This document shows, piece after piece, positions 15,367-46,468 of a stretch of 64,000 nucleotides of DNA. The DNA is from an uncultured Bacteroidales bacterium (GTDB lineage: Bacteria; Bacteroidota; Bacteroidia; Bacteroidales; FEN-979). The position numbers were made by a program, and so were the translations under genes. Location of the stretch: positions 1-64,000 of the forward strand of contig CAIQUS010000173.1 in NCBI GenBank assembly GCA_903875045.1, given 5' to 3'. Every line of letters begins with the position of its first letter. Position 1 is the stretch's first letter. The notes under the pieces were generated by a model that was given only the letters and a program-made list of their open reading frames with translations, had not been told where the DNA came from and did no database searches.

Positions 15367-15369
15367 GGG

Positions 15370-15440
15370 AGGTTTCGAGCGGAGTCGAACCGCTGTGGAC
15401 GGTTTTGCAGACCGCTGCCTAGCCACTCGGCCACGAAACC
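15370..15440 (-). tRNA. tRNA-Cys (anticodon GCA)
   Basis: Acceptor stem GGTTTCG/CGAAACC, D arm, anticodon loop CTGCAAA (anticodon GCA) on a GCGGT/ACCGT stem, and T-stem AGCGG/CCGCT. The discriminator base is U, the cysteine identity element. CCA is not encoded. The T-rich terminator follows immediately. Confidence 0.95.
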
Positions 15441-15489
15441 ATGGTAAATGGGCAGCAAAAGTACAAAAAGTTTTGAAATTACGACGATT

Positions 15490-15846
15490 TCATTTTTTCC
15501 AATGGGTTTTGAAGCTTACCTGCTGCATCTTTCCACCCATCGGCGGATTAACTTTCGCAATCTTCAAATCAATGCAGGTGATGGCCGGAAATTCACGGCA
15601 AATCGCATCCAGAATACGCCTGGCAACATGTTCAAGCAAATGGGATTTCTGTTCCATCTCTTTTTTTACGCAGGTATAAAGCCCGACATAATCTGCTGTA
15701 TCCCTTAGCTGATCCGACACCTCAGAAGCAGCTGTATCAACCTCGACCTGAAGGTCGAGGATAAACCTCGTGCCGATAATCTGTTCTTCCTTAAAACAGC
15801 CATGAAATGCAAAGAATTCCATACCCTCAAGCAGTATTGTACCCAT
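15490..15846 (-). CDS. folB: Dihydroneopterin aldolase
   Basis: Cleaves 7,8-dihydroneopterin to 6-hydroxymethyl-dihydropterin in folate synthesis. The 118-residue length is normal. ILLEGMEFFAFHGCFKEE is the conserved N-terminal strand with active-site region, LLEHVARRILDAI provides the pterin-binding Glu helix, and IAKVNPPMGG carries the catalytic Lys. The gene is unlinked to other folate genes and lies behind tRNA-Cys on the same strand. Confidence 0.92.
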   Translation of the reverse strand: MGTILLEGMEFFAFHGCFKEEQIIGTRFILDLQVEVDTAASEVSDQLRDTADYVGLYTCVKKEMEQKSHLLEHVARRILDAICREFPAITCIDLKIAKVNPPMGGKMQQVSFKTHWKK

Positions 15847-15979
15847 ATTTTGTTATTTTTAAACGGTGAAATTATCAAATTCCCGTGAACCGGGGCTAAG
15901 GTTTTTTAAATTGTAGTAAGTTTGCAGATCAATCTTCTGTTCTTGGCCTGTAAACCAACTCTCTTTTACTTTCATGCCG

Positions 15980-16014
15980 GGATTTGGAATTTGGAGCTTG
16001 GAATTTGGAATTTG
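15980..16014. repeat. 7-bp tandem repeat, GAATTTG units
   Basis: Five contiguous heptads (GGATTTG, GAATTTG, GAGCTTG, GAATTTG, GAATTTG) lie in the 216-base gap between divergent folB and glnS, about 50 bases before the glnS start. The rest of the gap shows only a -7-like TAAGTTTG at 15917-15924. Confidence 0.65.
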
Positions 16015-16062
16015 AAACTTTTCATCCCGTTTTAAATAGTAATATCATTTTATTCAGAATTT

Positions 16063-33136: not shown

Positions 33137-33605
33137 AAGAGTTGGTTTATTGACATTATTTTTACTGGTAGTTATTTTTGTAGGATCAGGTTGCAGCAGG
33201 AAGGAAAGCATGGAATTATATCATCGGTTTCCTGATAAAACCTGGGCGAGATTCAATTTGCTCAGTTTTGAATTACCGGTAAAAGAGGCCAGATTGTACA
33301 ATATCTACCTGTTCGCACGGTTCTCAACCGATTACCAATACGAAACGCTTGATTTCAATATGGTTATGAATACAGAAGCAGGAGAGGAACGGATAAATGA
33401 ATATCAAATGGCAGTGAAATCGAAATCGGGTGCGTTTTGTATTGAATGCAGCAGGGATTCCTGTCAGGGAACGATATTATTGAAACGGGAAATCAATCTG
33501 GCCAAGCCGGGAATCCTGAAAATCGAAATAGAAAATCTGACGCCCCGTTTAACTACCGCAGGAATCATGGGCATTGGCATCAAATTGGTCCCTTCAGGAA
33601 AGTAG
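33105..33605 (+). CDS. gldH: GldH-like lipoprotein (gliding / T9SS-associated)
   Basis: A 166-residue lipoprotein with signal helix and lipobox VGSGC (Cys near residue 30). The mature start ELYHRFPDKTW and the phrases LYNIYLFARFSTDYQY and GIMGIGIKLV fit the GldH family, accessory lipoproteins of Bacteroidota gliding. It overlaps the kinase gene by 32 bases and therefore depends on its transcript, and converges with 12 bases of overlap on the riboflavin kinase gene. The family call is by pattern memory and is moderate. Confidence 0.62.
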   Translation: MGNKSQCRQNRRVGLLTLFLLVVIFVGSGCSRKESMELYHRFPDKTWARFNLLSFELPVKEARLYNIYLFARFSTDYQYETLDFNMVMNTEAGEERINEYQMAVKSKSGAFCIECSRDSCQGTILLKREINLAKPGILKIEIENLTPRLTTAGIMGIGIKLVPSGK

Positions 33606-33974
33606 ACGCAGAGCTTCTTGTTTATCAAGGTGAATTTGCGCAACCAATTGGTCGAGATTGTCGAATTTCTTTTCATCGCGGATCCGATGAAAAAAATAAA
33701 CGACCAGGGATTTTCCATAGAGGTCACCTGAAAAATCAAATAAATTAACTTCCACTGTTAATTTTTTGCCATCGATGGTAGGACGGATGCCGGCATTTGC
33801 CATGCCTTTATATACGATTTGTTCTGATTCTACTTTTACAGCGTAAACGCCATGGGCCAGTAAAAAAGGATTATTTTTTAGTAATTCAAGGTTGGCAGTA
33901 GGAAAACCAAGGGTTCGGCCAAGGTGGTTTCCTTCCACCACCTTCGCACGGATCCAATAAACTGAATGCATCAA
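33594..33974 (-). CDS. Stand-alone riboflavin kinase domain protein
   Basis: Only 126 residues, equal to the C-terminal riboflavin kinase half of bifunctional RibF. GNHLGRTLGFPTANL is the flavokinase ATP-binding signature, NAGIRPTI and VEVNLFDF follow, and the catalytic Glu lies in the latter. Its N-terminus is a complete start (VYWIRAKVVEGNHLG) and the sequence upstream is the end of another gene, so no FAD synthetase half was lost here by frameshift. It would make FMN but not FAD. It lies 20 bases after the last respiratory gene on the same strand and is probably cotranscribed. Confidence 0.85.
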   Translation of the reverse strand: MMHSVYWIRAKVVEGNHLGRTLGFPTANLELLKNNPFLLAHGVYAVKVESEQIVYKGMANAGIRPTIDGKKLTVEVNLFDFSGDLYGKSLVVYFFHRIRDEKKFDNLDQLVAQIHLDKQEALRLLS

Positions 33975-33994
33975 CTTGCTGGCCTTTCCTTTGG

Positions 33995-34894
33995 TTAAAA
34001 GAGGGGTTTATCCTTTTTACTGAGACGTTTGATCATTACGAGTTCATATACGGCATACATGTAATGGGCCCACACACCTGCGAGCATAACCAGAAGGGTG
34101 ATGATCATCCATAACGGGGCGATCGGTGTCCACAGCTCACGTGAGGGTACTTCTGCCTTATAATATTGCTTATGAACGCCCCAATTTATTACATTTTTTC
34201 CCTGAACAAATCCAAATTTATCGTGTTCTTCAATTTTTGCAATCACCACGAGATTTCCGAGGGTATCTCCAACAATTTCTTTTGGAAATTCAAGGGTTCC
34301 CGTTCCGGTTTCATCCAGAGAAATTTCACCTATTTTCAGCAAGCTGAAAAGCCGGGGAATATAGATTAAAACAGTTTCCTTTGGAATGGCCACATCTTCA
34401 CCTTTTTCGTTTTTCTGCGTGGCAGTTACTTTTAGTATACGAAGAGAGTCCTCAATGCTGAAGAACAACCTGATTTTCGCCGGTTTTGCACTGGAGGTTG
34501 CCTCCGCTGCCGGATATTTATCATTGCCTGTGAATTTTGCCATATAGGAGACCATTCCATCTTTATCTGTTGGCAAGAGCGCTGAGGGAAAACTTAATAA
34601 TGCGCTGCCTTCCTGATTGGTTTTCGCTGTGCCTAAGATAGTGGTAGTGGTGCCATTTGAAGCAGTAAATTCTACCACGGCATTTTCCAGCGCCAGCGTC
34701 ATATCTCCTCTTTTGATGGTAAGGGTTGCCGACAGATTGACCGAGTCGGTACTACACAAATAGTTCAAGGCCATGCGTGATTCAGCCGGCGCAGCAGCAG
34801 AATCCGTTTTTTCTTCCGCAAATGAATTCAACGGCTGAATGGCCATAAAGCTTATGGTGATCAGAAATATCAAAAACGCGACAACTCTTTTCAT
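33995..34894 (-). CDS. Exported membrane-anchored Ig-like protein of the respiratory operon (unrecognised family)
   Basis: 299 residues: signal peptide (1-26, ending SFAEE), two beta-rich Ig-like domains facing the periplasm (about 40-135 and 140-235), and one C-terminal membrane helix (about 255-280) with a short basic tail, VMIKRLSKKDK. No cysteines, heme motifs or catalytic residues stand out. It lies 30 bases downstream of the NrfD gene in the same operon, so an assembly, docking or structural role in that complex is the simplest inference. Confidence 0.6.
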   Translation of the reverse strand: MKRVVAFLIFLITISFMAIQPLNSFAEEKTDSAAAPAESRMALNYLCSTDSVNLSATLTIKRGDMTLALENAVVEFTASNGTTTTILGTAKTNQEGSALLSFPSALLPTDKDGMVSYMAKFTGNDKYPAAEATSSAKPAKIRLFFSIEDSLRILKVTATQKNEKGEDVAIPKETVLIYIPRLFSLLKIGEISLDETGTGTLEFPKEIVGDTLGNLVVIAKIEEHDKFGFVQGKNVINWGVHKQYYKAEVPSRELWTPIAPLWMIITLLVMLAGVWAHYMYAVYELVMIKRLSKKDKPLF

Positions 34895-34924
34895 AAGGAT
34901 AGATTGAGTAATTCCGGTGAAAAA

Positions 34925-36238
34925 TTAAACTAAAACATCTTCTTTTTTCTCTTCCCCCTGTGATCCGGATAGGGGGACGATGGTAATAAACTTGGATGCG
35001 ATGGTAAAAAGGAGGCAGAAAATGGCAACTCCTGCTGCCGTCAGGCTCCATTCGACCCAGGTTGCCGAATAATTAAGCCATTCGGGGCGTGCATCCTGAA
35101 TAGGCAGATAGGGTGATTCAAGTGTGGGTACCACAATGATATAGCGGTTGAGCCACAATGCAATAATCACTACCACAGAGGTTATCGTGATGTTGGAGAT
35201 GGTCCTGAATTTGGCAATGCCAACTACCAGCAATGGCAAAAGCACTCCTATGTAATTGGAGATGATGAACGGCCAATAGAATTCTTTAAAGAGCAACTGG
35301 ATCAAAAGTTCATCATTTTTTTCAGAACCATACCATTTCGTGAGGTAATCGCTAAAGGTAAAGTAACCAAAAAATGCTGCAAGTACCAGCATAATTAAGC
35401 CAACGGCCACAAAGTGCTTTTTCGTGATATATTCCTCAAGGTGGTAAACTTTCCGGAAAACCCACATACATACAATCAAAACGGCACTTCCAGAATAGAC
35501 GGCCGCAATGACGAAATAGGGGCCAAAAATAGTGCTGTGCCAGCCTGGTTGCAGGGTAACGCTGAAAATCCAGGCCAAAACAGAGTACACGATGATGGCG
35601 ATAGAAATGACCATGGCGGCCATGATGTCGGTGGCCCGGTTTAAACGTTGTTGTTGTTCAGGGGTGCCGGTGTATCCCAATGCCAGCACTTTGTATAATT
35701 TTTTTCTCCAGTTCGGAAGTTGCAGCAATTCATAGTCCCTGAGTGTTGCCAGGTCACGCAATAAAGAGAGGTACAAGAAGATAAAACATCCGAAAATATC
35801 GGTTGTAATGGCGATCACGTCCCAGGTGATTGGTGACTGGATTCTTCCGAACAGCACCAGGTAATGCAATTTATCAAGACGGCCAATGCAGAGGAGGATA
35901 AAGCAGGGTCCGATCAACAGCGCAATAATGGTGATGAATTCGGCCATGCGGATGATCGGCTTACGCCAGGCCGTTTTAAACAGGTGCAATGTACCTGATA
36001 TAAGCGCACCGGCATAACTGACCCCCATGAAAAAGATAAAATTCACGATATACACTCCCCATACCACGTTGTCGCGCATACCGGTAACTTCATGTCCCAG
36101 AAATACTTGCTGAAGGAAGGCATAAAACCCCAAACCGATAACGGCCAATAAAAATACAATCCAGACATATCCTTGTATAGAAGTCCGTTCGAGTTGGGGG
36201 GCAAAGTCCCTTAATGGATTTTTTTGTTGCAGTTCCAT
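34925..36238 (-). CDS. NrfD/PsrC-family membrane quinone-interacting subunit
   Basis: A 437-residue polytopic protein with about ten membrane helices. The NrfD signature is visible in VWGVYIVNFIFFMGVSYAGALISG and in the following helices. NrfD subunits exchange electrons between membrane quinones and a bound iron-sulfur protein without heme. The iron-sulfur partner is encoded 2 bases upstream. Length and helix count resemble the larger NrfD proteins of alternative complex III and Hme/Qrc-type complexes rather than small NrfD of nitrite reductase. Confidence 0.88.
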   Translation of the reverse strand: MELQQKNPLRDFAPQLERTSIQGYVWIVFLLAVIGLGFYAFLQQVFLGHEVTGMRDNVVWGVYIVNFIFFMGVSYAGALISGTLHLFKTAWRKPIIRMAEFITIIALLIGPCFILLCIGRLDKLHYLVLFGRIQSPITWDVIAITTDIFGCFIFLYLSLLRDLATLRDYELLQLPNWRKKLYKVLALGYTGTPEQQQRLNRATDIMAAMVISIAIIVYSVLAWIFSVTLQPGWHSTIFGPYFVIAAVYSGSAVLIVCMWVFRKVYHLEEYITKKHFVAVGLIMLVLAAFFGYFTFSDYLTKWYGSEKNDELLIQLLFKEFYWPFIISNYIGVLLPLLVVGIAKFRTISNITITSVVVIIALWLNRYIIVVPTLESPYLPIQDARPEWLNYSATWVEWSLTAAGVAIFCLLFTIASKFITIVPLSGSQGEEKKEDVLV

Positions 36239-36240
36239 GG

Positions 36241-37203
36241 TTACGGTTTATTTTTTTTACTGTAAGGTGTGTCCTTGTAACGATCTTTCACTGATTCTTC
36301 CAAATCGCCGAAGCCCCTGTCAACTTCAAACTGGCGATCGACGGGAGGTAAATAGTAAACACACGGGCGTGTTCCGAGTGTTTCAAGATAGCGGTAACCA
36401 GCCCGGTCGTGAATGAGTTTGCTGAATTGGTAGGTCTCCGTGCCATTGGTTACCGTGTCTTCGTCAACATCGCCAAAATAGATAACACCCATCGGGCATG
36501 CAGAAGCACAATACGGGATTTTGCCAACCCTGATCAGATCGGGACAAAAGTCACATTTTGAAACGGTGCCTTCTTTACCGGGGCTGCTGGCTTCGGGGGA
36601 ATAGGGCTCCTTGTCTTCATCAAATTCAGGGTAATGTTTCCAGGCAAATACACGCGTGGAATAGGGGCAACCGGTCATGCAAAATTTACATCCGATGCAT
36701 CGTTCATTGTCGATCAGCACAATGCCATCTGAGCGCTTATATGTTGCACCAACCGGACATACACTCACACACAGAGGGTTATCGCAATGGAAGCAGGGTT
36801 TTGGAAACCAGTACGGGGCTGTTTTTTCAGAGTCCTGAAGCAGGTATACCTTCATAAATTCCTGACTTTGGGGAAGGTGATGACCTTTTTGGCATGCCTC
36901 AACGCATTTGCGGGCGTTTTTGCATTTTCCAAGGTCGATGACCATCACAAATTTCCGGCCGGGAATTCCTTTATGAGACTCTTCACGTGAAACGCGGGGC
37001 AGTTTTAACAAACCCCGGTCCACCTCCATAATTTCGCCATCGGTCGTAAGAACTTTTACCTTTTCTCCGGTTTCGGCGGCGTTTGTGTCGACATAGGCAG
37101 CAAGGAGACCACTACCAATAGCCACCCCCGCACCGGCGATAAGACCTTTTTTAAGGAACTGACGACGTGAGTTTTTCTGGTCTTTATTCAATTCTTCTTC
37201 CAC
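36241..37203 (-). CDS. Tat-exported four-cluster ferredoxin-like subunit (DmsB/NrfC/HybA type)
   Basis: 320 residues. The Tat signal SRRQFLKKG near residue 12 precedes a hydrophobic stretch, so it is exported folded. Four cysteine groups follow: CKNARKCVEAC, CFHCDNPLCVSVC, CIGCKFCMTGC, and CDFC with CASAC. In the first group Ala stands where CxxC usually has its second Cys, suggesting a 3Fe-4S or altered cluster. It would pass electrons between NrfD and the periplasmic cytochromes. No molybdopterin or other catalytic subunit is in the operon. Confidence 0.88.
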   Translation of the reverse strand: MEEELNKDQKNSRRQFLKKGLIAGAGVAIGSGLLAAYVDTNAAETGEKVKVLTTDGEIMEVDRGLLKLPRVSREESHKGIPGRKFVMVIDLGKCKNARKCVEACQKGHHLPQSQEFMKVYLLQDSEKTAPYWFPKPCFHCDNPLCVSVCPVGATYKRSDGIVLIDNERCIGCKFCMTGCPYSTRVFAWKHYPEFDEDKEPYSPEASSPGKEGTVSKCDFCPDLIRVGKIPYCASACPMGVIYFGDVDEDTVTNGTETYQFSKLIHDRAGYRYLETLGTRPCVYYLPPVDRQFEVDRGFGDLEESVKDRYKDTPYSKKNKP

Positions 37204-37214
37204 GTTGATAGATT

Positions 37215-37838
37215 TTAGTGAGATTCATGGTAACCATTGATCATGCTTTTAAAGTTGCTTGTCGGGGTTTTTCCGATGGTGCAAAAATAGATATGTACAC
37301 ACATGATGATGCTGATTGCAAAGCCGGAACCAATATGCAGCAGATCGGTCAGATCAAGTCCGCTGAAGCCAAAGAAACTGTTCACAGTAATTTCCGGGTA
37401 AAGCAGTCCCCAGCCTGAAAGAATTACAAAAGGAACAAATCCATACATTAAAACCACATAAGTAACCTGCTGCAGAGGATTGAATTTGCTCTCTTCATTG
37501 ATAGGAAACGGAGCGTGTTCTTTTTTGAAAATGCCAATGGTGTAATATAAAAATTGCTTTGTAAGGCGAATGAAAAATCCTTTGACCGGAATGACATAAT
37601 AGGCGCCATTTGGGGTGAAGAGATTTCCGAGAAAAAATCCTGTATAGCTGAGGGTTAAGAGAATTCCCGCTATATTATGCAGCGTTACTGCGGCATTAAA
37701 TTTAACTACGGTACCCGGATTTGAAAACTGGATGCTCAAACCGGTGATGATTAAAACAAGACAGAGGAGGGCATTGGTCATGTGCCAGATCCTGATCCAG
37801 ACAGGATACAAATAGATTCGTTCAGATGAATGGTTCAT
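37215..37838 (-). CDS. Four-helix membrane cytochrome b subunit
   Basis: 207 residues with four predicted helices and candidate heme-ligand histidines in WIRIWHMTN (helix 1), VTLHNIAG (helix 2), LLHIGSG and CVHIYFC (helices 3-4), the pattern of diheme cytochrome b subunits of formate dehydrogenase and hydrogenase type. It lies 11 bases upstream of the Fe-S gene and 9 bases downstream of the seven-heme cytochrome gene. It gives the complex a second quinone site beside NrfD. Confidence 0.82.
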   Translation of the reverse strand: MNHSSERIYLYPVWIRIWHMTNALLCLVLIITGLSIQFSNPGTVVKFNAAVTLHNIAGILLTLSYTGFFLGNLFTPNGAYYVIPVKGFFIRLTKQFLYYTIGIFKKEHAPFPINEESKFNPLQQVTYVVLMYGFVPFVILSGWGLLYPEITVNSFFGFSGLDLTDLLHIGSGFAISIIMCVHIYFCTIGKTPTSNFKSMINGYHESH

Positions 37839-37847
37839 AGGATAACT

Positions 37848-38867
37848 TTATTTTTTTATACGGAGTGCCGCATGAATGATGATAACCAGGATTGTCATTG
37901 CAAAAATGACCAGACTAATGATATTCAGTGTGTTGCTTTTGTCCGGGCCGATGGATGTTGCGTCTCCCAAAAGAAGAGCCCTGAAAACTCCTTCCTTCTG
38001 AATGTTCTCACTTACCTGATACTTGTATAGGGATGCATAGAGTATTGAGTTTTTTGAATGGCAGGACTCACATTTCCTGACAGCCTGGCTTTTCATAACC
38101 ACATGATGAGCCACAACAAGCGTATCTTCATTTTTAGCATGGCATTCGATGCAGCGCACGTTGGTAAAGTGGGCGGCCTGGTTGGGCAACCACTCGTGTT
38201 TTTGCAAGAGATTGGGTTTCGCTTTTGTGGTGAGCAGCTGATAATTTTTCAAATCACCATGACAATTGAGACAAATCATGTTATCATAGGTAATTGTGGT
38301 AGCAAGGTTTTCATTGGTGCGGGCGTTGATTTTATAGGTATGTGCATTGTGGCACATCCAGCAGGTAAAATCTTCGCTATGTTTTTCGGAATGGACACTT
38401 GCCTGAAATTCCGTTTCAATTTGTTCAAATTTGAATTTGGCATATTTTTCGTCACCGCCGTGGCAGTCGATACAATTTGCCTTGGCTTCCATGCGAAGGT
38501 CACCTGCATGGGGAAAGGTGACATAATCTTCCGAATGACAATCGGTGCATTTGAATTCGCGATGATTTGAAACATAAAATACATCACGGTTCATGACCAG
38601 TTCGGCGAACATTTTTTTGGTAACTGTTTTTTTTGATTCAGGGTTTACGTAGGTATATTTTGACTGGCCGTGGCATTTGAGGCAGTTTTCATTTTCTGCG
38701 GCATTTTTAAATTTGGAAAGATCAACTTTGGAGGGTTTTTCTTCTTCGGGCTGTATTTTTTTTGCAGGGGCAGTGTCGGATGTTTTCACCAGTGTAAATG
38801 CGAGTGTAAAAAGCATCAGTAAAACCAGTACAACCCAGGCAGGCCGGATATTTGCTTTGTAAATCAT
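37848..38867 (-). CDS. Membrane-anchored seven-heme c-type cytochrome
   Basis: 339 residues with an N-terminal membrane anchor (about 10-28), a periplasmic domain with seven CxxCH motifs (CLKCH, CTDCH, CIDCH, CWMCH, CLNCH, CIECH, CESCH) and a C-terminal helix (about 315-335). Extra histidines such as those in VAHHVV and SVHSEKH are likely distal ligands. It is the first gene of the inner-membrane electron-transfer operon, after a strong terminator that separates it from the monoheme cytochrome upstream. It probably links the cytochrome b/Fe-S/NrfD unit to periplasmic carriers. Confidence 0.9.
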   Translation of the reverse strand: MIYKANIRPAWVVLVLLMLFTLAFTLVKTSDTAPAKKIQPEEEKPSKVDLSKFKNAAENENCLKCHGQSKYTYVNPESKKTVTKKMFAELVMNRDVFYVSNHREFKCTDCHSEDYVTFPHAGDLRMEAKANCIDCHGGDEKYAKFKFEQIETEFQASVHSEKHSEDFTCWMCHNAHTYKINARTNENLATTITYDNMICLNCHGDLKNYQLLTTKAKPNLLQKHEWLPNQAAHFTNVRCIECHAKNEDTLVVAHHVVMKSQAVRKCESCHSKNSILYASLYKYQVSENIQKEGVFRALLLGDATSIGPDKSNTLNIISLVIFAMTILVIIIHAALRIKK

Positions 38868-38906
38868 AATTTTTATTGTAGAGTGTTAAACGGGTTGACC
38901 GGAAAA

Positions 38907-38946
38907 AAAATGGGTGTTTCCGGTGATGACCGGATACACCCATTTT
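38907..38946 (-). terminator. Strong terminator between the two halves of the cytochrome region
   Basis: An 18-bp stem with one mismatch (38907-38924 with 38929-38946, loop GATG) whose T-run lies on the minus-strand 3' side. It ends transcription of the monoheme cytochrome unit before the seven-heme operon. Confidence 0.85.
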
Positions 38947-38973
38947 GTAAATCATTGTTGAATGAACATGCAA

Positions 38974-39393
38974 CTACTTTTTCATTGTGCGCATGAAAGC
39001 AACCAATGCCCAGCGATCGCCGGCTTCAGCAATTTTCTTTTCGTAAGCAGGCATTTCATCACGGCCTTTATCGGTGCGATAGAAAAGCTCGCCATCGGTA
39101 GAAGCCTGGAAGGCTGCAGAGGAGAAATCACCAGGAAAAGTTTTCAGTGATGCGCCCTTTGGACCATCGCCCAGCCCTTTGCTTCCATGGCATGATTTGC
39201 AATGTTTTGCCCAGAGGTCTTTGCCTGTAGCAACATCGGCTTTTGACGGTGATTTCATGGCTTTATCTTTATCTGGCACAGGCCATGGTTTTGCTTTTGC
39301 CTGAGACTGAGCCAGAGCGGCATTGCCGAACAGAAAAACTACAGCAATGACTGCAGCTACCATAATTGTTGCGAATTTTTGTGTTGTTTTCAT
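38974..39393 (-). CDS. Periplasmic monoheme class I cytochrome c
   Basis: 139 residues with a cleavable signal peptide (ALA-QS near residue 28), one CKSCH heme site near residue 65 and a Met axial ligand in DEMPAY. GSKGLGDGPKG and the C-terminal helix WALVAFMRTM are typical of the cytochrome_CBB3/class I fold. It is a likely soluble shuttle between the inner-membrane complex and outer-membrane partners. It lies 38 bases after the DUF5777 barrel gene. Confidence 0.92.
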   Translation of the reverse strand: MKTTQKFATIMVAAVIAVVFLFGNAALAQSQAKAKPWPVPDKDKAMKSPSKADVATGKDLWAKHCKSCHGSKGLGDGPKGASLKTFPGDFSSAAFQASTDGELFYRTDKGRDEMPAYEKKIAEAGDRWALVAFMRTMKK

Positions 39394-39431
39394 AATTAAT
39401 TTAGGTTAAGGTTAAACAAGATTTTAGTCAG

Positions 39432-40382
39432 TTAAAAACTCCATAAACGGGTAAGGTTGAAGCCAACAAGAATGAAGCCATTAAAAAAGTTATTGGTGTT
39501 ATGCATTACGACCTCTGAAGGTAAAATTCCCTGCGCGGCAGAAATATAAAGATGAAAGGCATGGGTACTTGTTGATACCTCCCAGCCCAATGAAAAGTTG
39601 GCATAAGGAGCTTTGTTCTTAGGAAACTCCATCCAATTGTATCCATCCCTGACAATAAAAGCGGGATCGTAATTTAAAACTATTGGCTGAGTGTAGGCAA
39701 GAACAATGGATGATTGAGGACTTACCTTGATGCGGCCAAGCAACGAAAAGGCTAAAGCATCATTTCTGGCGGAAGAGTCGGAAGTACGGTCAACCTTGTT
39801 GAAATGTGTATAGCTGATACCTAACTGAGCAGACAACATCCCATTGAACCTGCGGGCAAACATGAACTCATTGTAGTAAGCCAGACGATCAACAAATTTA
39901 TAATCGTCACCAAATTTGGTTTTGTTAGTGGCATTCAATGAGAGGTTGAAGTAATAGGCAATGGTGAGGGGGAAACCGCCTTTACGCTGATGCATGAAGG
40001 CATATTTCACCTGCAGGTCCTGGAGGCGGCTGTTTTTTGTTGTCCCCAGCCCGACAATCAGATTTTTGGTGATGCTGAAATTTAAACCCAAACGGATGTT
40101 GGAGGCACCCCAAAGCCCGCCGAGGTCTGACCAGCCATTCTGGATCGTACCGAACCGGTGCTGTAATACAAATTCGAGGGTTTTTGAAGGAGGAACTGCC
40201 ACTGTGATATTGTCCATACAAATGCCGCTTTCAAAAGCAGCTTTGGCCAGAGGTTTTTGTGTTACTTCCGGCTCGGCAGGAATCGAGTCCTGCGCTATAA
40301 TTGTTCCGAGTCCTGAGAACACGAATGCCAGGGCAAGGATTATTCTTTTCGTCGAAATAATAGAAGTGTGCATTGTTTTCAT
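39432..40382 (-). CDS. DUF5777-family outer-membrane beta-barrel protein
   Basis: About 316 residues with a signal peptide ending GTIIAQ. The rest is alternating amphipathic strands (LEFVLQHRFG, IRLGLNFSIT, NLIVGLG, FPLTIAYYFNLSLN, FNGMLSAQLGISYTHF) and ends in an aromatic residue (LTRLWSF), as outer-membrane barrels do. DUF5777 proteins are seen near cytochrome genes in this phylum. Several in-frame ATGs exist; starts upstream of 40382 lengthen the basic N-terminus, and the longest overlaps the preceding gene. A pore for a heme wire is an attractive but unproven role. Confidence 0.72.
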   Translation of the reverse strand: MKTMHTSIISTKRIILALAFVFSGLGTIIAQDSIPAEPEVTQKPLAKAAFESGICMDNITVAVPPSKTLEFVLQHRFGTIQNGWSDLGGLWGASNIRLGLNFSITKNLIVGLGTTKNSRLQDLQVKYAFMHQRKGGFPLTIAYYFNLSLNATNKTKFGDDYKFVDRLAYYNEFMFARRFNGMLSAQLGISYTHFNKVDRTSDSSARNDALAFSLLGRIKVSPQSSIVLAYTQPIVLNYDPAFIVRDGYNWMEFPKNKAPYANFSLGWEVSTSTHAFHLYISAAQGILPSEVVMHNTNNFFNGFILVGFNLTRLWSF

Positions 40383-40413
40383 TTTTTTAGTGAATACTTT
40401 TTTCATGCCGGAA

Positions 40414-40794
40414 TTAATTGTTCTTTGCGCCTTCATCGATCCAATATTTGAGGGTCGCGATATCGGTGGTGTTGGAATAAGTATTCATGCTTGCACCAGG
40501 GAGCATCTTTTTATATAAAACGCTTTCTGCAGAATTGAACTTAACAACCATATTGTTATCGAAAAGACTTTGGTACGATTTTCCAGTCCGCAGGTCGGGA
40601 ATCTGGGTTCCTGCATGACACATGACACAACTTTTACTGAAAATTGGCTGTACTTTAAGCGAAAAACTGGTTGAATCGCCCGGAGGAGGAGGAGGGGGAG
40701 GAGCATCCGGCTGAATGGTGGCATATTCACATGCTCCAAACAGAAAAATTCCCAACAGGACGGCCAATAGATTGATCAGTTTAATCTTTTGCAT
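40414..40794 (-). CDS. Single-heme cytochrome lipoprotein with polyproline linker
   Basis: 126 residues from the ATG at 40794; an upstream ATG at 40851 adds 19 residues before the signal helix. The lipobox LFGAC puts a lipid near residue 22, followed by an acidic and polyproline linker, then VQPIFSKSCVMCH (heme site) and a Met in KKMLPGASM as likely axial ligand. The C-terminal YWIDEGAKNN is common in this type of small heme domain. It is first of a three-gene unit with the barrel and monoheme cytochrome genes. Confidence 0.82.
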   Translation of the reverse strand: MQKIKLINLLAVLLGIFLFGACEYATIQPDAPPPPPPPGDSTSFSLKVQPIFSKSCVMCHAGTQIPDLRTGKSYQSLFDNNMVVKFNSAESVLYKKMLPGASMNTYSNTTDIATLKYWIDEGAKNN

Positions 40795-40848
40795 ATATTT
40801 TAAATTAGGGGTTATCAGGTAAAAATATGAATAAATATCATTAGTTAT

Positions 40849-40856
40849 CAAATTTA
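40849..40856 (-). promoter_or_regulatory. -7 element of the lipoprotein-barrel-cytochrome unit
   Basis: TAAATTTG on the minus strand matches TAnnTTTG, 55 bases before the ATG at 40794. It touches the terminator of the upstream gene, and no -33 TTTG is visible. Confidence 0.4.
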
Positions 40857-40894
40857 AAAAAAGGCTTCAAGGAGTAGATCCTTAAAGCCTTTTT
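40857..40894 (-). terminator. Terminator after the first six-heme lipoprotein gene
   Basis: AAGGCTTCAAGGA (40861-40873) pairs with TCCTTAAAGCCTT (40879-40891) with one mismatch, and the minus-strand tail is T-rich. Confidence 0.8.
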
Positions 40895-40910
40895 CGGGTG
40901 TCAGACCTGA

Positions 40911-42266
40911 TTACAAGCCTGCATCATTCAATGCTTTGACAGAATTGGTCAAAAGCGCTCTGGAATAAGAGGTGTTGTGGATGCCTAAGCTATACTCCCT
41001 TAAACAGAATTGGAAGTTGATGATGGCGCCCAACTGAACATTCAATAATTTGGGGAATTTTGGTTTGGCCATGTTGGTGGCACTTGTGTTATATGGATCC
41101 CTCCAATAACCGTCATCATTTGTTCCTGCACTATAAATATCCAGGTAACCATCAAAGTTGCCGGCGGAGACACCAGCCCAAAGGTTGGCTGCAGAGGCAT
41201 CGCTGTGAAGAATGTTATGTCCGCCGCCGCAAGCATTGATTTTTGTGGCTAAAGCGTCAAGCAAACCTTTGATTTCGGTACGTGTGGCTTTCCATTTTAC
41301 GCTGTTTGCATCAATAGGCGCATCAATATGGCAACCGGCTATGTTGCAACCAACGAAATTCCAGGTAGTACCTGAACCCAGTGGAGTTTCAATTGCATTT
41401 CTGACATTGAACGAATGTCCGCCGGCAACACCCGTCATCGGGCTGGCCATGTGGCAATCCTGACAGGTAGCTTTTGTGGTATGAGGAGAGTTGGTATAAG
41501 GAATGGTACCAGGAAATTCGATTGCACCCTGACCTGCATATAAAGCACCAACAGCACCGTAGTGAATGTGCATTCTGTAAGAGGGTTTCAAATACTTGTT
41601 TTTCGCACCGGCGGCACTGTCAAACATAACGGTCAACGGGCTGCTGATCAGAGAATCATAGTTGAGCAATCTGGCAGCAGGATCATTTCCGCATGTAAGC
41701 GGACGAGGCTGGTGACATTTTACGCATAAATTGCTTTTTCCACCACCCTGGGCAAGGTCGATGGTTTTCAATCCGCCTCTCATGGTCATTGGGACAGGAG
41801 CTACGTTGGTTAACGCAATATCCGAAGTTTCGTAGGTTGTGTGTAAACTGCTGTGGCAGGTAAAGCAACCGATTTCACCAATGGCGTTGGCTGCATTTGT
41901 GGCATAACCATTTACCCATTTATTGGTTGTGGTATTGAATGTAAAGGTTGCCGGGACGTTGTTTTCACAAACATACACATAAGCTTTTTGTTCGTGGCAA
42001 GGGCCGCATGCTGTATTTCCGGCTTCTTCGAATGCAGCAGCTCCCCATGAATGTTTCGACAACTGAAATTCAGTGGCAATGGCATCCACGACAGCTTTTT
42101 TATGGCAATTCTGGCAAGTTTCACTTGCATCTTTTCCATTGGTACCATCTTTACCAGCGGGGCCGGTAAGACCCTGGGGGCCTTCCTTGGTGCAGGAAGT
42201 GAAGATTAAACATGCAGCGGCGATCATCACTCCGGCTGCGTAAAAGAATTTTTGTACATTTTTCAT
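40911..42266 (-). CDS. Six-heme cytochrome lipoprotein with collagen-like stalk, copy 1
   Basis: 451 residues. A lipoprotein signal ends at Cys25 (FTSC). The mature start KEGPQGLTGPAGKDGTNGKD is six Gly-X-Y triplets, a collagen-like stalk. Heme sites follow: CQNCH, CGPCH, CFTCH, CVKCH, CQDCH and one unusual CNIAGCH (CX4CH). The C-terminal ~110 residues have no heme motif. A TTG 69 bases upstream is rejected because it lies in the -7 element. It shares layout and upstream DNA with copy 2 at 43.1-44.4 kb, so the two are paralogs. Its position, anchor and stalk suggest an outer-membrane or surface electron carrier. Confidence 0.88.
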   Translation of the reverse strand: MKNVQKFFYAAGVMIAAACLIFTSCTKEGPQGLTGPAGKDGTNGKDASETCQNCHKKAVVDAIATEFQLSKHSWGAAAFEEAGNTACGPCHEQKAYVYVCENNVPATFTFNTTTNKWVNGYATNAANAIGEIGCFTCHSSLHTTYETSDIALTNVAPVPMTMRGGLKTIDLAQGGGKSNLCVKCHQPRPLTCGNDPAARLLNYDSLISSPLTVMFDSAAGAKNKYLKPSYRMHIHYGAVGALYAGQGAIEFPGTIPYTNSPHTTKATCQDCHMASPMTGVAGGHSFNVRNAIETPLGSGTTWNFVGCNIAGCHIDAPIDANSVKWKATRTEIKGLLDALATKINACGGGHNILHSDASAANLWAGVSAGNFDGYLDIYSAGTNDDGYWRDPYNTSATNMAKPKFPKLLNVQLGAIINFQFCLREYSLGIHNTSYSRALLTNSVKALNDAGL

Positions 42267-42332
42267 ACGGTTACTTTTTTTGTTAATAAATACGTTTATG
42301 CAGCAGACAACTTGTGCAAATTGTTTCGGGAA

Positions 42333-42430
42333 CAAAAATATCGAAGATTATGATGACCGCTGTTAATAAGTCGGTGAGATTTGTTAATATAATAACTGAT
42401 ATATCTCAATTGTACATTGACAAATATCAA
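42333..42430 (-). promoter_or_regulatory. FNR-type promoter region of six-heme copy 1
   Basis: On the minus strand a -7 element TATTTTTG (42333-42340) has no good -33 partner. Upstream lie two FNR/CRP-like boxes: CTGATATATCTCAA on the plus strand at 42396-42409 (8 of 10 arm bases of TTGATNNNNATCAA) and TTGACAAATATCAA at 42417-42430 (9 of 10), offset by 21 bases. The inner box centre is 66 bases from the -7 centre, a class I activator distance. The same geometry is seen at copy 2. Confidence 0.75.
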
Positions 42431-42756
42431 CAGACACATTTGTATTACAGGTTGATCGTTGTTTTTAGCGTCAGATAATCGAATTTTGACTGAAAATATA
42501 AAGTTGCTGTGAAAACATTATCAGACAATTTTTTTGCACTTTTCGGGAAAACCGTAGAGACTGTTTAAATTTATTTTGTGCCTCCGGCACAGGTTTACGC
42601 AAAGAAATATAACCGAATAAGAATTCTAAACAGACGCTGAACCTTTATAAAAAGCAGCCTATCCCTTTGGGCCGGGGATAAAACCAAGCTAATCTATGAT
42701 TATTATTCTCCATCCGGATAAGCCAGAATTAACCGGCCCCGGAGGCCTGTTCCAGC

Positions 42757-42924
42757 TCGCTCCCTTGGTGCGAAATATTGGTAGGACGTTGATATTTGGG
42801 AACAATTCGCTCCGTAGGTGCGAAATTATTTCCCGGATTATAAAATCAAAAAAATTGCGCACCTATGGAGCGCTGAGATCGGGGGGGCATACGGACTACC
42901 AATATTCGGCTCCTACGGAGCAGG
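42757..42924. repeat. Large imperfect inverted repeat in a 700-base gene-free gap
   Basis: Outer arms GCTCCCTTGGTGCGAAATATTGGTAG (split over 42760-42785) and its counterpart near 42895-42924 enclose inner arms TCGCTCCGTAGGTGCG (42807-42822) and CGCACCTATGGAGCG (42858-42872). Nested pairing would give a long stem. An open frame crosses it but has no coding character. Related words (CCTCCGGCACAGG near 42580, CGCCGCAGGTGCGG near 51970) suggest a dispersed element. The rest of 42431-43049 shows nothing recognisable. Confidence 0.6.
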
Positions 42925-43049
42925 GAAGGATTATTGATAATATGTATTTCCACATAGGAAGGGTTTTGCCAAATTCAAGTACGCTTGGTACAAATGCGCT
43001 CAATCAAAGAATAGAATTCCTGCTTGACCGAAAGGGATAGTCAGTAAAA

Positions 43050-43093
43050 AAAAGAAATCCCGGGAAAACAATTGTTTTCCCGGGATTTCTTTT
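43050..43093. terminator. 44-bp perfect palindrome, bidirectional terminator
   Basis: A 22-bp arm with no loop, built around CCCGGG on each side and AACAATTGTT in the centre, flanked by A-run and T-run. It sits 21 bases after the stop of the copy 2 gene on the minus strand and would terminate transcripts from both sides. Confidence 0.85.
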
Positions 43094-43114
43094 GAACAAT
43101 TAAAACAGTTCAGT

Positions 43115-44413
43115 TTAGTTAGCAGTAACCCAATCGATAGAGTTTTGTAAAAGCTGGAGTGCGTAGCCAGGATTGTGAGCACCTTTTGATAATTCGCTGT
43201 TGATATAGGCATAGTTGTAAGCGGCACCTAATTCACCGTATTTCCATAAGCGGCCGATCCTGTTGGTATAATCGCTGTCTTTGGCATATTTAAGAATATT
43301 GTCATAAACCACCAGACCTGTTGTAGGGCTGACCGTATTCATGCTTGAACTGAGAGCAAAGAGATCGCCCGGGGTTTGGGTGGTAGGATAGAGTTTGCCA
43401 TTGAAATCGTGTGTGGCCACGGCACTATATGAAATAGCTCCTGTGGTGGAATTCACAGTTTTCTTAAAGATTTTTTTGGTGGTGAGAAGTTCAGCCAGTT
43501 CAATACGTTTGGCTTCAATCAGGGCCTGGACCGGAGTAATTTTATCCGAACCGTGGCAGGCCGTGCATGCCGCTTTGTTTACCCATAAAGTGTGGCCACC
43601 TTCGCCGGTTGCAGCATCAAATTCATTCATGTGGCAATCGGTGCAAGACATATCAGAATGTTTCCAGGTTCTGGTATAGGTTTTCCCTGCATATTCATAT
43701 CCATTGATGCCGGAAAAGAGGTTTGACTGGTTTCCATCATGAACGGAAAAACTTCTGCCAGCGCGATATTCAACAGTGGCATTGTCGTCGGTATTGGTAA
43801 ACGGGAAGTAGGGAAGCTGATCAAACGGTGCCTTGAGAACTTTGGGAACAAGGGTCGTATCAGAATAAACCAATGCGGTGGCTCCGCGAATCTGATGGCA
43901 TTGTACACATAAGTTGTTGATTTTGCCAAAATCGGTGGAGGTAAGATTTTTATTGTAATTTAAAAACACAGGGGAGGTGGTAGCCAAAACCTGGGAAACG
44001 GTGTCGCCCGTAAAGTCAAATCCATTGTGTGAATGGCAGGTTGTGCAGTTGATTCTGTTGGATGCCGGCATGTCATTTGCAACAACAAATAAGCCGCTAC
44101 CAAGAATTTGTTCAAATCCTTCGCTGACATGGCAACGAGCACAGAATTTGGTAAACCGGTTGCTTGTAGTGCCAAGATAATGTTTTGATAAGTGATACTC
44201 AGCAATTTTTGCGTCAAAATTGGCAACAGTATGGCAAACCAGGCAAGAACCATTTGCATCTTTACCGTTTAAACCATTTGTTCCATTTACTCCATTAATT
44301 CCGTTCACACCGGCGGGACCCTGGGGGCCTTCCTTGGAACAGGAAGAAAGCATTAAGCATGCCACCCCGACCATTAATCCGGCAGCGTAAAATAATTTTC
44401 TTACATTTTTCAT
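43115..44413 (-). CDS. Six-heme cytochrome lipoprotein with collagen-like stalk, copy 2
   Basis: 432 residues. Lipoprotein signal with Cys25 (LSSC), then about eight Gly-X-Y triplets (GPQ GPA GVN GIN GVN GTN GLN GKD), Asn-rich and two triplets longer than copy 1. Heme sites: CLVCH, CARCH, CTTCH, CVQCH, CTDCH and CTACH. A C-terminal region of about 130 residues lacks heme motifs. The signal peptides of both copies are nearly the same (MKNV-K-FYAAG-M), while heme-domain sequences have diverged, fitting an old duplication with a conserved or converted 5' region. Transcribed alone, ending at the palindromic terminator. Confidence 0.88.
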   Translation of the reverse strand: MKNVRKLFYAAGLMVGVACLMLSSCSKEGPQGPAGVNGINGVNGTNGLNGKDANGSCLVCHTVANFDAKIAEYHLSKHYLGTTSNRFTKFCARCHVSEGFEQILGSGLFVVANDMPASNRINCTTCHSHNGFDFTGDTVSQVLATTSPVFLNYNKNLTSTDFGKINNLCVQCHQIRGATALVYSDTTLVPKVLKAPFDQLPYFPFTNTDDNATVEYRAGRSFSVHDGNQSNLFSGINGYEYAGKTYTRTWKHSDMSCTDCHMNEFDAATGEGGHTLWVNKAACTACHGSDKITPVQALIEAKRIELAELLTTKKIFKKTVNSTTGAISYSAVATHDFNGKLYPTTQTPGDLFALSSSMNTVSPTTGLVVYDNILKYAKDSDYTNRIGRLWKYGELGAAYNYAYINSELSKGAHNPGYALQLLQNSIDWVTAN

Positions 44414-44479
44414 ACTCTTACAGTTTTTGTTAATAAATACGTTTATGCAGCAGACAACTTGTGCAAATTGTTTCGGGAA

Positions 44480-44577
44480 CAAAAATATTGAAGATAATGA
44501 AGGGCATTGTTAATAAGTCAGTGAGATTTGTTAATATAATAACTGACATATCTCAACACTTCGTTGATATATATCAA
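44480..44577 (-). promoter_or_regulatory. FNR-type promoter region of six-heme copy 2
   Basis: -7 element TATTTTTG on the minus strand (44480-44487), then boxes CTGACATATCTCAA (44543-44556, 7 of 10 arm bases) and TTGATATATATCAA (44564-44577, a perfect FNR consensus palindrome). The spacings, 66 bases from -7 to inner box and 21 bases between boxes, are identical to copy 1. The leader of about 60 bases is also the same as in copy 1. Confidence 0.82.
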
Positions 44578-44667
44578 TATTTCAACGATTTTTCCGCCTC
44601 AAGGGTGTTGTTTTACTGAATTATGCAAAGGGGATAAAAAAGGAGGGCTTTTATTGTGATAAGTTTA

Positions 44668-45363
44668 TCAGCCTGTTTCGCTGATCTGGCGAAGTTGTTT
44701 GATATTCAGGATCTCCAGCATGTTGGTATTGATGGTGAGGATTCCTTCTTCTTTAAACTCTTTTAAAATGCGGATAGCGCTCTCTTTTGACATCCCTGAA
44801 AGGTCTGCAAGGTCCTGGCGGGAAATGGTCATTTCAAAAGGATTCTGGCAGTATATTTTATCTGCCAGGTAAAAAATCACATCTGCGATACGGCCATGCA
44901 TCTGTTTCTGGGTGAGGCTGATCACCTGGTCGAAATTGAAAATGGACTGAAGCGATACGCGTTTGATAAATTCTTCGGCAAAATCGGGGTTTTCGCGGAT
45001 CAGTTTTTTAAACACGGTCACATCAACCAGGCAAGCTGTGCAATCCTGAACAGCTGCAGCGGAATAATAGTGGCGGTTATCGACATAAATTCCTGGGCCA
45101 AAGATGTAGTCGACGGGTTTAATCAAGGCCAGGATTAAATTTTTGCCATACCCTTCTATGTATATTTTAGCCAATCCGGAGGTAACGCAAACAAAATACG
45201 GAGAGGGGGTGCCCTGCTTAAAAATAATCTCCCCCGCCTTATAACTCACCTGAAACCTGCTGCTGTTGATCAGTTCGATTTCAAACGGGCTTAAATTTTT
45301 AAAGATGGAGGATTTGCAGTTACAATCGGCGCAATTGGACGAATGATGTAATTTGTTTACCAT
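44668..45363 (-). CDS. FNR/CRP-family transcriptional regulator
   Basis: 231 residues: cyclic-nucleotide-binding-type beta-roll (about 30-125), dimer helix, and a C-terminal winged helix-turn-helix (about 175-225) with ISRQDLADLSGMSKESAIR. The recognition helix keeps the Glu and Arg that contact GA in TTGAT-type boxes. Cysteines at 11, 14 and 16, plus 108 and 111, resemble the N-terminal and central cysteines that hold the oxygen-labile 4Fe-4S cluster of FNR, though the spacing differs. It lies directly upstream of the cytochrome region whose promoters carry FNR boxes, so it is the probable regulator. Confidence 0.88.
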   Translation of the reverse strand: MVNKLHHSSNCADCNCKSSIFKNLSPFEIELINSSRFQVSYKAGEIIFKQGTPSPYFVCVTSGLAKIYIEGYGKNLILALIKPVDYIFGPGIYVDNRHYYSAAAVQDCTACLVDVTVFKKLIRENPDFAEEFIKRVSLQSIFNFDQVISLTQKQMHGRIADVIFYLADKIYCQNPFEMTISRQDLADLSGMSKESAIRILKEFKEEGILTINTNMLEILNIKQLRQISETG

Positions 45364-45403
45364 CGGATATGGCTGATTGGGCCTGAATTTTTGGAATAGC
45401 AGA

Positions 45404-45477
45404 CAAAGATAGTACTTAATTGATATATAACAAATTTTGCGGCTCTATTTATCAATGTGTGAATTGAGAAATGTCAA
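45404..45477 (-). promoter_or_regulatory. Promoter of the FNR-type gene with overlapping FNR boxes
   Basis: On the minus strand, TTTG (45431-45434), 19 bases and TATCTTTG (45404-45411) form a consensus promoter. TTGATATATAACAA (45420-45433, 9 of 10 arm bases) covers the -33 element and part of the spacer, a repressing position. A weaker box, TTGAGAAATGTCAA (45464-45477, 8 of 10), lies further upstream beside the asd stop. Confidence 0.72.
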
Positions 45478-45478
45478 C

Positions 45479-46468
45479 CTAAATCAGATTATTTGTTGTC
45501 AGGTATTCTGCAATCTGCACGGCATTGGTAGCTGCGCCTTTGCGCAGGTTATCCGCGACAATAAAGAGGTTCAAAGAATTGGGCTGTGATTCATCGCGTC
45601 TGATCCGTCCAACAAACACTTCATCTTTGCCGGCAGCATGGAGGGGCATGGGGTAAATATTATTTTTAATATCATCGTGAATAACAATGCCGGGTGTATT
45701 GCTGAGAAGTTTTGTGATATCGTCAATGATAAAATCACGTTCGAATTCAAGATTGATGGCTTCAGAATGTCCGCCTAATACAGGAACCCTGACGATGGTG
45801 GCAGTGATCCGGATTGAATTGTCATTAAGGATTTTGTGGGTTTCATGTACAAGTTTCATCTCCTCGGAGGTATATCCGTTATCCAGAAATTCACCGCCGT
45901 GGGGGAAAAGGTTCAAGTCGATCGGGTAGGGATAAGCCATTTCGCCGACAATACCATTTCTTTCATTTTCAAGTTGTTTTACTGCTTTGGCCCCGGTACC
46001 GGTTACAGACTGATAGGTAGAGGCGACAATTCTTTTGATGCGATACGCAGCATGAAGTGGCGCTAAAACCAACACGAGCTGAATGGTGGAACAATTGGGG
46101 TTGGCAATAATTTTATGATTCCTGGTCAGGACAGCGGCATTTATTTCGGGAACGATCAGTGGAATTTCCGGGTTCATACGCCATGCTGAAGAGTTATCGA
46201 TAACGGTCACACCGGCAGCGGCATAGCGGGGTGCCCATTCCCGGGAAGTGGCGGCACCGGCAGAAAAGATAGCCATTTCGGGTTTCGCGGCAATGGCCTG
46301 TTCGTGGGTGTGAATAAAATAACGATGATGGTTGAATGTGAGCGGAAGACCGGCCGACCTGGCAGAAGCCACGGGGATAAAGGTTTCGGGATAGATTTTA
46401 TGTTCGTCCAGAACTTTGAGAATTTCCCGGCCAACAAGTCCGGTAGCACCGACAATAGCGAGTTTCAT
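45479..46468 (-). CDS. asd: Aspartate-semialdehyde dehydrogenase
   Basis: Reduces aspartyl phosphate to aspartate semialdehyde, the branch point for lysine/diaminopimelate, threonine and methionine. 329 residues from ATG 46468: the NADP-binding VGATGLVGREIL lies at the N-terminus, NPNCSTIQLV carries the active-site Cys near residue 128, and GGHSEAINLEF carries a conserved His. A longer frame to 46609 runs through an octamer repeat (Pro/His/Ala-rich) and past a -7 element TACCTTTG at 46486-46493, so it is rejected. With that promoter the leader is only about 11 bases. Confidence 0.95.
   Translation of the reverse strand: MKLAIVGATGLVGREILKVLDEHKIYPETFIPVASARSAGLPLTFNHHRYFIHTHEQAIAAKPEMAIFSAGAATSREWAPRYAAAGVTVIDNSSAWRMNPEIPLIVPEINAAVLTRNHKIIANPNCSTIQLVLVLAPLHAAYRIKRIVASTYQSVTGTGAKAVKQLENERNGIVGEMAYPYPIDLNLFPHGGEFLDNGYTSEEMKLVHETHKILNDNSIRITATIVRVPVLGGHSEAINLEFERDFIIDDITKLLSNTPGIVIHDDIKNNIYPMPLHAAGKDEVFVGRIRRDESQPNSLNLFIVADNLRKGAATNAVQIAEYLTTNNLI

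Follow-up and report, generated by a model that had tools for sequence, protein, structure and literature searches.

Does an uncultured Bacteroidales bacterium encode a route by which respiratory electrons could pass from the quinone pool to acceptors outside the cell? This question is raised by a gene locus on contig CAIQUS010000173.1 of GenBank assembly GCA_903875045.1, a draft genome of 5.96 Mb in 253 contigs, of which we analyzed one stretch of 64,000 nucleotides (C173:1-64000, hereafter the window). The locus comprises a respiratory gene set that is real and conserved and that ends in outer-membrane six-heme lipoproteins with collagen-like tethers. Its barrel is unlike those of Mtr-type conduits. 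On balance, we regard it as a respiratory module for extracellular electron transfer, an assignment that we hold with slightly more confidence than doubt.

All genes concerned lie in a single run on the minus strand, from 45363 to 33995, in the order CRP/FNR regulator, mhcA, mhcB, monoLP, DUF5777 barrel, monoheme cytochrome c, mhcM, b561-type cytochrome b, iron-sulfur (Fe-S) protein, NrfD, and Ig-like membrane protein (mhcA, mhcB, mhcM, and monoLP are names coined in this analysis only). Heme motif counts along the run are 6, 6, 1, 1, and 7. The mechanically called open reading frames (ORFs) of mhcA and mhcB begin 23 codons ahead of the signal-peptide ATG; the ATGs at 44413 and 42266, read from the sequence, are used here. 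The features are listed below.

45464..45477, no strand assigned: perfect TTGA-N6-TCAA box 5' of the regulator gene (one of four perfect matches in 64 kb)
44668..45363, minus strand: CRP/FNR-family regulator with N-terminal cysteines C-X2-C-X-C (Pfam cNMP_binding 4.6e-14, HTH_Crp_2 4.7e-14)
44564..44577, no strand assigned: perfect TTGA-N6-TCAA box 5' of mhcA (one-mismatch site 21 bp off, at 44543)
43115..44413, minus strand: mhcA, six-heme lipoprotein, OcwA/NrfA superfamily by profile (six CX2CH; Pfam Cytochrome_C7 2e-8; family alignment)
44258..44329, minus strand: mhcA Gly-X-Y stretch of 8 triplets (sequence; Pfam Collagen below cut-off)
42417..42430, no strand assigned: perfect TTGA-N6-TCAA box 5' of mhcB (one-mismatch site 21 bp off, at 42396)
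40911..42266, minus strand: mhcB, six-heme lipoprotein, the more widely conserved family member (five CX2CH and one CX4CH)
42129..42182, minus strand: mhcB Gly-X-Y stretch of 6 triplets (sequence; Pfam Collagen below cut-off)
40414..40794, minus strand: monoLP, monoheme lipoprotein with a Pro-rich linker behind the lipid cysteine (CX2CH; NCBIfam LIC11213 lipoprotein 1.9e-8, below cut-off)
39432..40436, minus strand: DUF5777 outer-membrane beta-barrel, 12 predicted strands, start codon uncertain (Pfam PF19089 2.7e-63)
38974..39393, minus strand: monoheme cytochrome c, signal peptide by eye (Pfam Cytochrome_CBB3 1.5e-11)
37848..38867, minus strand: mhcM, seven-heme cytochrome, N- and C-terminal hydrophobic segments by eye (seven CX2CH)
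37215..37838, minus strand: b561-type cytochrome b (Pfam Ni_hydr_CYTB 8e-23; NCBIfam thiosulfate reductase cytochrome B 1.8e-54, below cut-off)
36241..37203, minus strand: Fe-S protein, DsrO-like, with a twin-arginine signal (NCBIfam DsrO 9.2e-50, below cut-off; RR motif; Pfam TAT_signal below cut-off)
34925..36238, minus strand: NrfD/DsrP-like membrane protein (Pfam NrfD 7.3e-30; NCBIfam DsrP 7.9e-24, below cut-off)
33995..34894, minus strand: Ig-like protein with a C-terminal hydrophobic segment by eye, accompanying the Fe-S and NrfD genes (Pfam Big_3_5 below cut-off; gene order)

An earlier sequence-only reading of this DNA had placed the genes of an electron path in one region, 37848-45363. 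They are indeed all present in one minus-strand run, and the cytochromes, barrel, and lipoproteins do lie within that range; however, it misses the cytochrome b, Fe-S, NrfD, and Ig-like genes, and its part 44668-45363 encodes the CRP/FNR regulator. The heme counts given at the time (two six-heme lipoproteins, a seven-heme cytochrome, and two monoheme proteins) agree with the motifs found.

Relatives of mhcA and mhcB were detected in 54 of 100 related genomes (E<=0.001, host counted) and in 17 of 18 genomes of the same genus, while close mhcA orthologs (E 3.9e-180 or better) were detected in 7 of the 100, including the host, and in 4 of the 18. In locus L032, mhcA occupies the usual mhcB position and the genome has no second match, whereas L031 and L034 have both genes, so the outer cytochromes look exchangeable. 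A contig scan seeded on short mhcB peptide patterns, which favors near relatives, gave 83 confirmed places; the best 80 were kept and represent 78 loci, 48 of them flanked by 4.5 kb or more on each side. The contig titles name metagenome-assembled genomes of Bacteroidales, Prolixibacteraceae, Lentimicrobium, and the like, plus a small number of Ignavibacteriae and Kapabacteria, which points to a Bacteroidota host. The core monoLP-barrel-mhcM-cytochrome b is found in 42 of the 78 loci and in 37 of the 48 well-flanked ones, always on one strand and in the same order (42/42), so that the gene order proposed by the sequence-only reading as a check does recur in related genomes. Relative to the core, the best mhcA/mhcB gene of these 37 loci lies upstream on the same strand (22), downstream (6), or on the other strand (9). 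At least two of the Fe-S, NrfD, and Ig-like genes are present in 15 of the 78 loci (similarity >30 bits), and a gene of 490-510 amino acids with six CX2CH, recognized by length and motif count only, in 20. In L124-L126 (two labeled Ignavibacteria, one Bacteroidota), a family protein stands beside a probable barrel of 410-432 amino acids, called in L126 on a Pfam match below cut-off, and a 14-heme cytochrome.

Co-occurrence was examined in 119 genomes of the order (cut-offs E<=1e-10 for mhcB, E<=1e-20 for mhcM and for the ImcH-like gene introduced below, and E<=0.001 for DUF5777), which yielded mhcB in 26 genomes, mhcM in 22, the ImcH-like gene in 17, and DUF5777 in 49. Genomes shared with mhcB number 19 of 22 for mhcM (p 1.7e-13), 16 of 17 for the ImcH-like gene (p 3e-12), and 25 of 49 for DUF5777 (p 4e-11), the p values being from one-sided Fisher tests on genomes that share ancestry and are not independent trials. 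A DUF5777 match lies on the same contig within 15 kb in 21 of the 26 mhcB genomes (read by hand; one is partial, at a contig end).

As the sequence-only reading had noticed, Gly-X-Y runs directly follow the lipid anchor, with 8 triplets behind the lipobox cysteine of mhcA and 6 behind that of mhcB. A script detected a lipobox in 77 of 84 distinct family proteins from loci L051-L128, and each of these 77 has three or more Gly-X-Y triplets ahead of its first heme (median 7, range 3-18, six with exactly three); the heme motif count is six in 76 of them and four in the remaining one. As for the seven proteins without a script-detected lipobox, those of L115, L119, and L121 start at a contig end, that of L124 has 6 triplets and a cysteine missed by the script rule, and in those of L117 and L123, larger proteins in which no lipobox was found, a different N-terminal domain is followed by 13 and 21 triplets, respectively. 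The one counter-example, L113, shares this other N-terminal domain but has zero triplets and fewer heme motifs. In the protein cut at the contig end of L119, the same heme domain follows 28 triplets. Since the runs are present family-wide, a chance origin was rejected. In the host genome, mhcA and mhcB are the sole places that match Pfam Collagen at E<=1, both below cut-off, and proline is confined to the first triplets of the tether. In a single-chain model of mhcB, the tether is disordered (predicted local distance difference test, pLDDT, <50 for residues 19-87). Both a flexible and a triple-helical spacer are compatible with the tether, which may keep the heme domain off the membrane; members with three triplets make a stable triple helix unlikely as its general function.

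The six heme motifs are invariant in a 34-row family alignment, the sixth being CX4CH or CX2CH. Four further histidines are invariant (H71, H234, H283, and H429, first-sequence numbering). By eye, another two, one close to the third motif and one preceding the fifth, differ in position among subgroups by a few residues. With six non-motif histidines, all six hemes could be bis-His coordinated; an open heme may still occur in the domain. Compared with PDB sequences, the family profile matched 6i5b best (E 2e-7), followed by NrfA entries (1oah at 1.4e-5, others weaker), with similarity spanning heme pairs and the C-terminal helix, and mhcA alone gave nothing better than E 0.18. The 6i5b entry is OcwA, described as a cell-surface terminal reductase for extracellular electron transfer and a relative of NrfA (PMC6703420). 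The profile places the six-heme domain in the OcwA/NrfA superfamily, an assignment to which the mhcB model (pLDDT 71.5, predicted template modeling score 0.75) adds weak structural support. NrfA itself was ruled out as the identity of mhcA or mhcB by the lack of a CXXCK heme: all six motifs end in His in 34/34 rows, and no CXXCK heme occurs anywhere in the run. A genome search for the NrfA family PF02335 gave nothing at E<=0.001, and hmmscan assigns mhcA a PF02335 score below cut-off. The earlier statement that no terminal reductase subunit is encoded thus stands for the CXXCK motif and PF02335, but has to be qualified, as the six-heme proteins fall by profile within a reductase superfamily. 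Membership in the MtrC/OmcA group was also rejected (Pfam Mtrc-MtrF II-IV scores 30.3 for mhcA, where the cut-off is 30, and 22.4 for mhcB), and the NCBIfam decaheme models matching mhcA score far below cut-off.

On the quinone side, 28 aligned mhcM sequences share the seven heme motifs and eight further invariant histidines (H102, H120, H159, H176, H224, H233, H254, and H332), seven of which precede the C-terminal segment in which H332 sits; this pattern would fit a wire of seven bis-His hemes. The b561 protein matches Ni_hydr_CYTB and, below cut-off, the gamma subunit of formate dehydrogenase. A CbcL-type layout, i.e. a multiheme c part and a HydC/FdnI-like b part, is therefore present as two genes, and mhcM with b561 resembles a split CbcL-like unit, the two proteins corresponding to the two halves described for CbcL in an account of CbcL/MtoC/MtrH; judged by that description, the differences are two genes instead of one and seven hemes instead of nine (PMC6295460). 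Relatives also carry a gene of about 500 amino acids with the layout described for ImcH, which comprises three N-terminal transmembrane segments, a NapC/NirT-like part, and seven heme motifs (PMC6295460). Its homolog in L067 has a PF03264 match (5.2e-11), six CX2CH and one CX3CH, and three segments by eye; the host counterpart (C17:21388-22872), 53% identical to it, is likened to ImcH by layout and description only. No other ORF with at least three CX2CH was found in two 20-kb stretches of that contig (L163, L164). Three neighboring arrangements in relatives were also noted. In L127, titled Kapabacteria, a 737-amino-acid protein (14885-17095) fuses b561 to an ImcH-like NapC-type multiheme part. 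Downstream of the core in L067, a 960-amino-acid, 19-motif cytochrome (14839-17718) has a b561-like C-terminal part, below the Pfam cut-off, and similar ORFs occur in other relatives. Near the mhcB homolog of L063 lies a fused ResB/CcsA cytochrome c assembly gene (232-3306), with ORFs of similar length in the same place in other loci.

The perfect TTGA-N6-TCAA box, which we take to be of the FNR/CRP type, occurs four times in the window: three copies lie just 5' of the regulator, mhcA, and mhcB, and the fourth, at 56602, falls inside an ORF. With one mismatch allowed, 58 sites are found against 60.9 expected by chance, so only perfect boxes count. In L051-L128, a perfect box lies near the start (-350 to +100 bp) of 43 of 79 family genes, compared with 10 of 504 other ORFs of >150 amino acids in the same loci. 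The N-terminal C-X2-C is kept in 44 of the 48 regulator homologs listed (hand count; one of the four exceptions is a fragment) while further cysteines vary, which makes an Fe-S or oxygen sensor plausible. The gene set is probably under this FNR-type regulator and induced without oxygen.

The leaders of mhcA and mhcB are near-identical (identity 1.00 in two 30-base blocks from -70 to -11, against 0.27-0.83 in coding blocks from +20). Within these regions (44414-44490 and 42267-42343), a 20-base block with one variable base is identical in 14/14 aligned leaders, picked by eye for resemblance, and is absent from leaders of distant relatives (L056, L059, and others). A 25-base part of the leader has just two sites in the genome, those of mhcA and mhcB, with up to three mismatches allowed. 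The leader fold is weak and shows no compensatory pair. The 779-bp gap between mhcA and mhcB (42336-43114) contains a motif, possibly a small repeat element, that occurs at five places on four contigs of the genome (<=1 mismatch). All six Rfam matches over 33000-46000 are below the gathering threshold.

Gene content, order, and conservation, together with the heme motifs, profile similarity, and promoter boxes, suggest the following direction and order of electron transfer. Quinol would be oxidized at the cytoplasmic membrane by b561 with the heptaheme mhcM, and also by the FeS-NrfD pair, and mhcM and the monoheme cytochrome would carry the electrons on to the outer membrane. There, mhcA and mhcB, presumably surface-exposed on their short collagen-like tethers, would act as terminal reductases of an extracellular acceptor, candidates being Fe(III), humics, flavin shuttles, an electrode, or another cell, and monoLP and the DUF5777 barrel would form the remaining outer-membrane part. 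This export of electrons, also proposed by the sequence-only reading, is consistent with the conserved quinol-to-outer-membrane multiheme chain, the kinship with OcwA, the co-occurrence of the ImcH-like gene, and the arrangement in L124-L126; what did not survive is a barrel that completes the heme wire.

Several observations weigh against extracellular electron transfer. The AlphaFold2 model of the barrel (pLDDT 81.6) has 12 strands of at least 8 residues and is small-porin-like, with NanC, OmpG, and other barrels as leading Foldseek matches; it is not an MtrB/PioB protein, and a search of the genome for that family (PF11854) was negative at E<=0.001. The "complete path" from the quinone outward claimed by the sequence-only reading is not borne out at this point. 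By hand estimate from usual barrel geometry, 12 strands leave about 21 Angstrom between backbones and 26 strands about 45, so the barrel is not expected to enclose a cytochrome in the way that MtrB encloses MtrA. As modeled, its width appears insufficient for a heme wire of the Mtr type, and it might possibly be a channel that lets a soluble acceptor or a shuttle pass. The argument is not to be pressed too hard, since for ExtI, in a proposed Geobacter conduit cluster, one paper predicts 12 transmembrane segments and another 21 (PMC5877670, PMC6148476). Moreover, none of the 30 loci picked as best DUF5777 matches (L129-L158) has a neighbor with more than two CX2CH within 1.5-kb flanks, so the pairing of barrel and monoheme protein also exists outside multiheme chains. 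A second, higher-scoring DUF5777 gene of the host (C175:75434-76174, L157) lies beside a monoheme gene and one that we take to be YceI-like.

The same holds for points away from the barrel. The full core is missing from 11 of the 48 well-flanked loci, including one titled Ignavibacteriae and one Kapabacteria, and among the 26 mhcB genomes 7 have no mhcM match and 10 no ImcH-like match. No perfect box accompanies 36 of the 79 family genes. Foldseek returned six matches for the mhcB model, none at E<=0.001, with NrfA as the best (E 0.048) and OcwA absent from them. Finally, the claim that the lipoproteins face outward finds only half a match to one Bacteroidetes export signal, C-X-K-(D/E)2-X (in the family, 50/77 with C-X-K-[DE], 0/77 with two acidic residues). 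The optimum described for this signal is that of Capnocytophaga, and other species differ (PMC5080379). The signal was not used as proof of exposure, since some monoheme lipoproteins also have C-X-K-[DE].

The porin-like 12-strand barrel and the NrfA-superfamily heme domain would also suit a reductase of soluble acceptors, the main rival, in which an oxyanion or redox shuttle diffuses through the barrel and is reduced by six-heme lipoproteins anchored in the inner leaflet. Its quinone subunits would be those resembling DsrO/DsrP and thiosulfate reductase, all below cut-off, and a precedent is reported in the porin-like ExtI of a Geobacter cytochrome cluster, which is implicated in selenite and tellurite reduction (PMC5877670). 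OcwA itself is described as slowly reducing nitrite (PMC6703420). We nevertheless consider this rival rather unlikely, though to be taken seriously, because the family has no CXXCK heme, the co-occurrence with the ImcH-like gene points to extracellular electron transfer, and the exchangeable outer proteins, with mhcA beside or replacing mhcB, recall the Geobacter relatives described as varying in their outer components while keeping the periplasmic ones constant (PMC6148476).

The remaining explanations seem less probable still. The CRP/FNR regulator with its N-terminal cysteines and the NrfA-superfamily domain could belong to a system that is not mainly respiratory but detoxifies nitrogen oxides, or balances redox state, at the outer membrane and is controlled by a sensor of NO or O2; two quinone-side units would exceed what detoxification needs, and the CXXCK heme is again lacking, so we give this little credence. 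Nearly as doubtful is inward flow, in which extracellular Fe(II) or a partner cell would act as the donor and the same chain would deliver the electrons to the quinone pool, given that ImcH homologs are described as reported only in Fe(III)-reducing bacteria (PMC6295460) and that the host genome has an ImcH-like gene by layout. Within the preferred extracellular electron transfer reading, one may speculate, with a good deal of skepticism, that Bacteroidota possess an outer-membrane electron exit of a separate kind, in which monoLP and the 12-strand barrel jointly make up a porin-cytochrome reduced to two genes, or else a gated channel for shuttles, and feed six-heme OcwA-like reductases that form trimers through a collagen triple helix and are exchanged as cassettes behind a single FNR-controlled leader. 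The monoLP homologs carry CX2CH in 38 of 44 and CX4CH in 6 of 44 distinct sequences, and two copies (L048, L049) have neither.

Among known systems, Thermincola potens OcwA (6i5b) aligns with the six-heme domain in its last heme pair and final HN-containing helix, but has nine hemes and a Gram-positive host, whereas the proteins studied here have six hemes, a lipobox, and a collagen-like tether. NrfA shares heme pairs and the C-terminal helix in profile matches, along with a weak Foldseek match, and differs in its five hemes, one of them CXXCK, and in the lipobox found here. With MtrCAB and OmbB-OmaB-OmcB the common logic is that of a quinol oxidase, a periplasmic carrier, an outer-membrane barrel, and lipoprotein cytochromes; in contrast to them, no MtrB/PioB was found in the genome, the barrel is predicted to have 12 strands, and the run, to which this search was confined, has no periplasmic decaheme (MtrA-like) cytochrome. 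Nearest in idea, by description, is Geobacter sulfurreducens PgcA, a predicted surface multiheme lipoprotein with proline-rich repeats that its authors liken to collagen; it is triheme, its repeats are described as proline-rich rather than Gly-X-Y, and its circular dichroism indicated no unusual structure (PMC5732950). The Bacteroidetes_1 cluster of an anode biofilm, uncharacterized and proposed for extracellular electron transfer, combines six multiheme genes and one barrel; as described, its composition differs and no collagen-like tether is mentioned (PMC8258643). The Ext cluster of Geobacter likewise places a porin-like barrel, ExtI, within a cytochrome cluster, but is described with a rhodanese-like lipoprotein rather than a cytochrome and is linked to selenite and tellurite (PMC5877670, PMC6148476). 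In the open-licence PMC library, no literature was found on DUF5777 or on collagen-like or Gly-X-Y stretches in multiheme or c-type cytochromes, in keeping with the earlier remark that the combination of stalk and multiheme domain is not one known from described electron-transfer systems. A further paper in which both collagen and multiheme proteins appear lists just a collagen-binding domain.

To our knowledge, few extracellular electron transfer routes have been described in Bacteroidota. A conserved, FNR-boxed operon with outer-membrane parts of its own would provide a marker for extracellular electron transfer in this phylum, and it would open to experiment the question of whether electron export through a barrel of 12 strands is feasible in the first place.

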